Shown: positions 54,484-59,917 of the stretch, one piece after another
Position numbering within the stretch: the stretch's first letter is position 1
Layout: each line of letters begins with the position of its first letter
From: Methylococcales symbiont of Iophon sp. n. MRB-2018
GTDB taxonomy: Bacteria > Pseudomonadota > Gammaproteobacteria > Methylococcales > Methylomonadaceae
Length of the DNA: 64,000 bases
Direction of reading: 5' to 3'
NCBI GenBank assembly: GCA_003666325.1
Contig: QPIL01000120.1
Location: 23,170 to 87,169, forward strand
The notes under the pieces: model-generated
What the model saw: only the letters and a program-made list of their open reading frames with translations
Database searches by the model: none
What the model was told of the DNA's origin: nothing
Program-made: the position numbers and the translations under genes

Positions 54484-54684
54484 TCAGTTAAATAGCAGAG
54501 AGCCTTTTTTAATATTTTTATTAGATAATATTAAAAAAGACTCCCTGCTTTTATGTTTAGCATTCCTTTGATATTTTGTTTTGTCTTTGAATGTTTGTGC
54601 TTTGTTAAATTGAAAAGCAAATTTTGCTACTGGATTTTTGCTGTGTATAAATTCCAATATTTTGGAATTTTTTCTTTTTTTCAT
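54484..54684 (-). CDS. small basic protein, ArfA-like ribosome-rescue candidate
   Basis: 66 aa MKKRKNSKILEFIHSKNPVAKFAFQFNKAQTFKDKTKYQRNAKHKSRESFLILSNKNIKKGSLLFN; AAGGAG 7 nt before ATG; hairpin within the 3' coding end. Confidence 0.6.
   Translation of the reverse strand: MKKRKNSKILEFIHSKNPVAKFAFQFNKAQTFKDKTKYQRNAKHKSRESFLILSNKNIKKGSLLFN
54494..54549 (-). promoter_or_regulatory. 23-bp stem / 10-nt loop hairpin inside the 3' end of the small ORF
   Basis: Minus strand AGCAGGGAGTCTTTTTTAATATT-ATCTAATAAA-AATATTAAAAAAGGCTCTCTGCT; two non-Watson-Crick positions only. Confidence 0.88.
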
Positions 54685-54759
54685 AATAACTCCTTAAAAG
54701 TTTTGGAATATTCTCCATAGTCTATTAATATAAACCCTTTATTTGAACATAGAACCGTT

Positions 54760-56628
54760 GTGGATTTCCAGAAAAAGTTTGGCGTTATAATTATTGGTGG
54801 TGGACATGCAGGTACTGAAGCAGCATTAGCTTCAGCGCGTTGTGGTGTCAAAACATTACTGCTTACGCAGAATATAGATACCTTAGGGTTAATGAGTTGC
54901 AACCCTGCCATTGGTGGAATAGGTAAAGGGCATTTAGTTAAAGAGATTGATGCCTTGGGTGGTGCAATGGCGTATGCAGCCGATCTTGCTGGTATTCAAT
55001 TTAGAACCTTAAATGAAAGTAAAGGGCCTGCGGTAAGAGCAACACGAGCGCAAGCAGACCGAAGTTTATATAAGCAAGCGATCAGAACTAGGTTAGAAAA
55101 CCAGCAAAACCTGACCTTGTTTCAGCAAACCGTTGCGGATTTAATTGTTAAAGGTGACAAAGTTGTTGGTATTAAAACCCAAATGGGTCTGGATTTTTTC
55201 GCCAAAGCCATTGTATTGACCACCGGTACATTTTTAGGTGGTTTAATTCATATTGGCTTAGAAAATTATAGCGCTGGTCGAGCGGGTGATTCTGCCTCCA
55301 TTGCTTTATCAGAACGCTTACGTGAACTTCCTTTTCGTGTTGATCGTTTAAAAACAGGCACGCCACCCAGAATAGACGGCAGGTCTATTGATTTTGACAA
55401 GCTGGAAACACAACATGGCGATGAGATATTGCCTGTATTTTCCTATATCGGTAATCGAGCGCAGCATCCTCGTCAAATACCTTGTTATATCACTCGTACC
55501 AATAGTAAGACACACGATATTATTCGCTCTGGCATGAACAGATCACCCATGTACACGGGTGTAATTGATAGTGTAGGCCCGCGCTATTGTCCTTCTATTG
55601 AAGATAAAGTAGTGCGCTTTGCTGATCGAGATTCTCATCAAATCTTTGTAGAACCAGAAGGTTTGCAAACCCATGAAGTGTATCCAAATGGTATCTCAAC
55701 CAGTTTGCCTTTCGATATTCAGCATCAACTGGTTCAATCCATGGTAGGTTTTGAAAATGCAGTCATTATTCGTCCTGGCTATGCCATTGAATATGATTTT
55801 TTTAATCCGATTGATTTAAAAGCATCTTTAGAAACTAAACATATAAAGGGTTTGTTTTTTGCTGGGCAAATTAATGGAACCACGGGTTATGAAGAAGCCG
55901 CAGCACAGGGTTTGATTGCTGGTTTAAATGCGGCAAGATTAGTGAATGATCTTGAGAGCTGGTGCCCACAACGTAATGAAGCTTATATCGGTGTGATGAT
56001 TGATGATTTGATCACGCTGGGCACAGAAGAGCCTTATCGCATGTTTACCAGTCGAGCCGAATATCGCCTTCTGTTAAGAGAAGATAATGCTGATTTACGC
56101 TTAACTGAAAAAGGTAGGGAATTAGCCTTAGTGGATGATGTGCGTTGGCAAGCCTTTCAGCAAAAACGTGAAGCTATAACCCAACTGCAAACTGATTTAA
56201 CCAAACAATGGGTAAGAACGGGGACAAAGCAAGCGAAGCAAGCGGAACAAATATGGGGCAAGGAGCTTAAAAAAGAAGCCAATATGATGGCACTGTTATG
56301 TCGTCCAGAAGTGGATGTGGATAATTTACTTAAATTTGCGGCTATTAGTGATATTGATGAGCAAGTGGCACAGCAAGTTGCCATTCAAGCCAAATATGCA
56401 GGTTATATTGATCGTCAGCAAATAGAGATCAACCGAATCCAGCGTTATAATGACTTTAAATTACCTATGGATGAAGATTACAGCAAAGTTTCAGGGCTTT
56501 CTAACGAAATCAGTGAAAAACTAAAAGTGCAAAAACCAGAAACATTAGGTCAAGCATCACGGATACCAGGAATAACTCCAGCGGCTATTTCTTTATTATT
56601 GGTGCATTTAAAAAAGAAATCTGGATAA
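54760..56628 (+). CDS. mnmG: tRNA uridine-5-carboxymethylaminomethyl synthesis enzyme MnmG
   Basis: [47 protein letters not shown] start. Confidence 0.98.
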
Positions 56629-59150: not shown

Positions 59151-59341
59151 TATAAGCAAAGGAGTCGTATTTGTTGAATACGGTATTAGACTTGATCACC
59201 TTGTTTTCTGCTTAAAAATAAGCTATGCAAACTAGATAAAAAAAACTATAATGCCCAGTTCATTGGAGTTCTTTGCTCCGTCCTTGCTTTACTGCTATAT
59301 ACAAATATTTAAGCAGAAGGCTTATCCCAAAAGGAGAAAAA

Positions 59342-59917
59342 ATGCGACATTATGAAATCGTCTTTTTAGTACATCCTGACCAAAGTTCTCAGGTTCAAGC
59401 AATGATTGACCGTTATAAAGCAACTATTGAAGATGCTGACGGCAAAATTCATCGTCTTGAAGATTGGGGGCGTAGACATTTAGCCTATCCTATAAAGAAA
59501 ATCCATAAAGCACATTATGTATTGATGAATGTGGAATGTGATCAAACTACTTTAGATGAGCTAGAAAGTGGTTTTCGTTTTAACGATGCTATTTTACGCA
59601 GTATGACAATAGCAAAAAAAGAAGCCATTACAACGGACTCTCTGATTGCAGCAGCTAAAGCAGAAGAAGTAAAGGCAGCTGAAACTAAAGCAGCAGAAGC
59701 CGCAGCCGCTACAAAAGCTGCCGAAACCGAAGCTGCCGAGAAAGCCGCTACAAAAGCTGCCGAAACCGAAGCTGGCGAGAAAGCCGCTACAAAAGCTGCC
59801 GAAACCGAAGCTACCGAAGAAGTCACTACAAAAGTCGCCGAAACCGAAGCTACCGAGAAAGCTGCTACTAAAACTGCTGAAGTAGAAAAAGAAGCAACTT
59901 CAAAAGATGCTAAGTAA
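59342..59917 (+). CDS. rpsF: 30S ribosomal protein S6 with long Ala/Glu/Lys/Thr-rich C-terminal repeat tail
   Basis: [25 protein letters not shown]..., followed by [25 protein letters not shown]... repeats; start preceded by AAAAGGAG. Confidence 0.95.
59705..59880 (+). repeat. In-frame ~39-bp minisatellite in the 3' part of rpsF
   Basis: Unit ~ACAAAAGCTGCCGAAACCGAAGCTGCCGAGAAAGCCGCT repeated with decay. Confidence 0.9.

Follow-up and report, generated by a model that had tools for sequence, protein, structure and literature searches.

ArfA (PF03889), found in beta- and gamma-proteobacteria, is a small, basic backup ribosome rescue factor with a C-terminal K-x-x-Y-x-R-K-x-K-H motif. When not bound to the ribosome, peptides of this kind are mostly disordered. 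The arfA message contains a stem that is cut by RNase III and that also causes transcription termination, yielding a non-stop mRNA that places ArfA under tmRNA control (PMC3989581). ArfA is active when truncated at Asn47, 2 amino acids after its KH, but not when shorter (PMC5378476), and the KH motif of both ArfA and BrfA contacts U534 of the 16S rRNA in the mRNA channel (PMC6881298). BrfA of Bacillus subtilis has the Lys-His motif in common with ArfA and owes its non-stop mRNA to an internal terminator (PMC6881298); it is described as having no sequence relationship to ArfA and as probably confined to Bacillus. ArfT of Francisella tularensis, a bacterium without ArfA and ArfB, is a small basic factor of 40 aa that recruits a release factor, carries KKGGSTNKK near its C-terminus, and has neither a terminator nor an RNase III site ahead of its stop codon (PMC6299226). 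ArfB (YaeJ), a further backup to trans-translation, has its own GGQ domain. A 2021 review expected more small release-factor-recruiting rescue proteins to exist and considered them hard to find by sequence similarity (PMC8012679).

Here we describe a 66-aa protein encoded in a 64,000-nucleotide stretch of DNA, which we refer to as the window, from a Methylococcales symbiont, a methane-eating bacterium. It belongs to DUF7230, until now a Pfam family of unknown function on which we found no papers in the literature searched. Judging from gene and protein sequence, DUF7230 is very probably a ribosome rescue factor that has so far gone unrecognised, acts in the manner of ArfA with the help of a release factor, and is produced from non-stop mRNA.

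A small basic gene beside mnmG

The ORF runs on the minus strand from an ATG start at 54684 to 54484 and comprises 66 codons. As a previous sequence-only reading of this DNA had stated, it is preceded by a strong Shine-Dalgarno sequence (TAAGGAG, 54690..54696, minus strand); it ends in a TGA stop codon (54484..54486, minus strand). The protein scores 65.3 bits against Pfam DUF7230 (PF23876; cut-off 27, E = 5.4e-18), with no meaningful match among NCBIfam models or, by sequence, in the PDB, and a plasmid search found nothing. Codons 17-44 (54553..54636, minus strand) encode a basic core kept in the family, NPVAK...FNKAQ.F.DKTKYQR.AKH, in which N17, V19, A20, A23, and D34 are invariant in our family alignment (A1) and Y38, R40, K43, and H44 are kept at ≥90%. 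The core ends in the Lys43-His44 codons (54553..54558, minus strand), the KH motif known from ArfA and BrfA (PMC6881298). The pattern K..Y.R..KH..RE pointed out in the sequence-only reading is present in the ORF, and its Y.R..KH portion is conserved across DUF7230.

As already noticed from the sequence, the gene adjoins mnmG (54760..56628, plus strand); the two are divergent, and this arrangement recurs in most family members: a tblastn search of MnmG against the homologue loci gave matches upstream in 31 of them, the window's own included. Elsewhere in the window, the ORF at 59273-59917 (plus strand) is ribosomal protein S6-like and has a long repetitive Ala/Glu/Lys/Thr tail.

The genome containing the window is 98.6% complete and encodes tmRNA (ssrA), SmpB, RNase III (rnc), and two RF1/RF2-type matches; RNase III and tmRNA-SmpB are likewise present alongside ArfA. 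We did not detect ArfA in this genome, and no ArfB match rose above the cut-off, the only ones being RF1/RF2-like matches of about 34 bits. We found DUF7230 itself in 38 of 61 relatives and in 13 of 369 genomes drawn across the class. In a single-protein scan of named genomes, a sister gene (83% identical) was found in the Methylococcales symbiont of the sponge Hymedesmia, with others in further Methylococcales. One genome (G025) has two copies (L012 and L045), each with a hairpin. ArfB occurs in 9 of the 38 DUF7230 carriers versus 11 of the 23 non-carriers, and 12 of the 61 relatives have neither gene. Strict mutual exclusion of ArfB and DUF7230 was dropped as an idea, since ArfB is rarer among carriers but not significantly so (Fisher p = 0.09).

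A covarying hairpin anchored to the protein core

On the minus strand, positions 54549..54494 fold into a hairpin of 23 consecutive base pairs, 2 of them G-U, with a 5′ arm (54527..54549) and a 3′ arm (54494..54516) identified by folding and covariation and a predicted loop of 10 nt (54517..54526). The stem begins right after codon 45, 24 nt past the first base of the Tyr38 codon, and ends 7 nt upstream of the TGA, exactly where the sequence-only reading had placed it; the stop codon is predicted to be removed from most of the mRNA. The folding energy is −28.5 kcal/mol compared to −6.65 ± 2.27 for 56-nt shuffles (z = −9.6), and among 171 pieces of 260 nt each, taken from window ORFs of ≥150 aa, none contained a local hairpin as stable. 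We looked for a T-run terminator after the stem and found none.

We observed a strong long stem, 21-33 bp in length, in 41 of the 42 homologues carrying the Y.R..KH motif. Only L034 lacks one: in this GC-rich gene no stem stands out from the background. This survey used local windows and just 60 shuffles per gene, at which some GC-rich members (L007, L024, L048) are individually non-significant, and the case rests on the set. Distances were measured from the KH codons because the automatic start choice may be wrong in a few loci (e.g. L045). Measured in this way, stem starts fall between −10 and +7 nt relative to the KH end (SD 4.6 nt), whereas the stop codon lies anywhere from 33 to 183 nt beyond KH (SD 35 nt), so the length of the ORF drifts while the stem stays tied to the core. 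The hairpin precedes the stop in 30 of the 41 genes with a stem. In the other 11 the stop falls inside the predicted hairpin, as it also does in several ArfA genes, and these genes would yield a non-stop message only if the 5′ arm is cut.

The pairing itself is under selection. Among 21 aligned sequences, 20 of the 23 stem pairs show two-sided changes, 89% of the cells in the stem are paired compared to 42-55% with the partner slid, and the covariation score is 0.602 versus 0.233 for shuffled and 0.08-0.18 for slid controls. The window gene and its sister (L046) differ at 5 pairs, 3 of them by double substitutions, and all 5 are still paired despite the residue changes SRESFLI to SKEPFPI and KK to GK. 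The hairpin in DUF7230 genes is therefore no chance feature. The sequence-only reading would have failed had no homologues kept the hairpin inside the gene along with the basic core; 41 of 42 keep the two, and together with the strong covariation they support it.

Hairpins differ toward the edges of the family. Stems of 25 pairs overlap the stop in two genomes of a third family (L031, L032). In two genomes of another family (f120; L036, L037), the ORF holds a GC-rich hairpin and, after it, a T-rich stretch, both upstream of the stop. A terminator scan accepted L037 and not L036; the arrangement is suggestive of an internal terminator like that of brfA. Short members in small genomes are mostly without a strong hairpin, as are some distant members (f180 genomes of 1.0-1.5 Mb, and L033).

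Comparison with ArfA and the proposed mechanism

The sequence-only reading had likened K..Y.R..KH..RE to the core of ArfA and suggested a search with the ArfA model. We found no PF03889 match in the window protein, in any member of alignment A1, or in the genomes of the 61 relatives, with the E. coli control found. Any likeness is limited to a motif of about 14 columns: DKTKYxRKxKH aligns with ArfA KGKGSYxRKxKH over 14 columns with an hhalign probability of 31% (13 columns and 22% in another run), and reciprocal HMM scores between the two families reach 14.1 and 13.1 bits versus 9.6 and 5.2 for the best decoys, a modest excess. It does not extend to the N-terminal half, where DUF7230 has NPVAKxAxxFNKAxxF and ArfA has the RF2-binding NAxxAL..PLFRxRV; DUF7230 also lacks KGKGS, and the RF2-binding region with Phe25 (LFRQRV) is unrecognisable in alignments A1 and A2. 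With PF03889 absent and this half unrecognisable, we rejected a direct ArfA assignment. Of the earlier proposal of a diverged or unrecognised rescue factor, membership in ArfA is thus lost and "unrecognised" is kept as a prediction that agrees with the shared core and hairpin. RTPRFRxRV was seen only in a distant group (L039, L041) of short proteins, NPxAKxVRTPRFRxRVV, which are picked up by the DUF7230 profile as well as by that of ArfA and may be an evolutionary bridge between them. Homology between DUF7230 and ArfA, confined to the mRNA-channel motif, is possible and so far only suggestive; it is equally possible that the two families arrived at this solution by convergence, for which a case has been made with BrfA and ArfT.

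The anatomy of the two genes is closer than their sequences. The same script that was used for DUF7230 detected a strong hairpin in 17 of 19 ArfA loci of another order (−23 to −39 kcal/mol), the remaining 2 being missed by the motif pattern used. The distance from the Tyr codon of GSYxRKxKH to the hairpin start is 19-33 nt in most of them and shorter in five, which places the hairpin at a point past the motif similar to that in DUF7230. Based on the motif, the KH pair of DUF7230 would lie at the corresponding end of the core. With a channel-type basic motif at the end of the core and a covarying stem behind it, placed to remove the stop codon, an ArfA-like way of working is well supported as a prediction. 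BrfA, compared by its description, would resemble DUF7230 as the product of a non-stop mRNA with a shared Lys-His motif, but in the main DUF7230 group the stem resembles an RNase III site rather than a terminator. ArfT would share the recruitment of a release factor, but DUF7230 has a hairpin and no KKGGSTNKK-type motif, and for lack of that motif the ArfT identity suggested by one 40-aa member (L040) was rejected. ArfB would share the backup role, but the 66-aa DUF7230 protein is without GGQ.

What the sequences show is a conserved core, the genomic setting, and a covarying stem whose position follows the core rather than the stop. The steps from cleavage and tagging to ribosome binding and recruitment of a release factor are inferred and would run as follows. 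The mRNA would fold its 23-bp stem just past the codons of the basic core, and a nuclease, most likely RNase III, would cut the stem to leave a message without a stop codon, at the end of which translating ribosomes would stall. When trans-translation is working, tmRNA-SmpB would tag the product of roughly 50 aa for destruction. When it is overloaded, the untagged peptide would survive, insert its basic tail DKTKYQRNAKH into the mRNA channel left empty in stalled ribosomes, and bring in a release factor that frees the nascent chain.

Several other explanations of the stem can be weighed against this mechanism. Hairpins are common near gene ends, and the stem could be an ordinary intrinsic terminator overlapping a small, functionally unrelated gene at its 3′ end; the T-rich 3′ arm ends of 13 of the 41 stems would speak for this. 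However, a T-run directly follows the stem in only 4 of the 41 genes, the window stem is not terminator-like, and the stems are long, anchored to the KH codons, and mostly followed by the stop. Even if transcription did terminate there, the message of the 30 genes with the stop beyond the stem would lack a stop codon, which is the BrfA arrangement. We therefore regard a mere terminator as very unlikely. The scarcity of T-runs fits RNase III better than termination, and RNase III is probably the main cause of truncation. That the palindrome is a DNA element, such as a mobile-element remnant or a protein-binding site, with the ORF incidental, is extremely improbable: strong palindromes can be DNA sites, but G-U combinations outnumber A-C combinations by 50 to 19 on the coding strand of the stem alignment, indicating that the mRNA sense strand folds and that selection acts on it, and the ORF is a clear Pfam member with a core conserved over many genera beside mnmG.

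A remaining alternative accepts the non-stop control and assigns the protein another role at the ribosome, for example in hibernation or as a ribosome-binding regulator. A small, basic, and probably disordered protein would suit such a role. However, a non-stop arrangement amounts to tmRNA control, the known cases found in the literature searched (ArfA and BrfA) are rescue factors, and the core ends in YxRKxKH, which in ArfA is the part lodged in the mRNA channel. We consider this role slightly less likely again than the terminator, and favour rescue from non-stop mRNA as the function of DUF7230.

Phage relatives and wider meaning

Relatives of DUF7230 also occur in phages. Four from Pseudomonas phages (Wroclawvirus, Pakpunavirus) and Aeromonas phage Ah1 (L114-L117) are DUF7230-like, annotated only as hypothetical, and without a strong hairpin; three are of 38-50 aa, and the fourth (L117) is a frame of 75 aa. 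In three of the four copies fetched, the protein ends naturally soon after KH, and by sequence these proteins are possible phage ribosome rescue factors. Enterobacterial-type jumbo phages (CBB, GAP32, XbC2, Kaldavass, Munch, fENko-Kae01, and Hallingskeid; L118-L124) carry relatives with a conserved hairpin, AAAGGACGY..RCGTCCTTT, directly 3′ of the KH codons, which in phage Munch was annotated by the depositors as a terminator inside the CDS. More tentatively, and with some doubt on our part, DUF7230, ArfA, the L039/L041 group, and phage families PHROG 6310, 1359, and 4586 might form one superfamily of release-factor-recruiting rescue peptides, under tmRNA control in bacteria through RNase III stems or internal terminators and with own copies in jumbo phages, some with a hairpin right after KH.

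DUF7230 is a strong candidate for one of the rescue proteins that had been expected to exist, and it was found through RNA architecture. It comes from Methylococcales, an order in which ArfA was undetected in all 61 genomes searched, and phages are suggested to carry relatives. A function can now be proposed for this Pfam family, and a stem that is anchored to the protein core and not to the stop codon provides a search signal for further cases.
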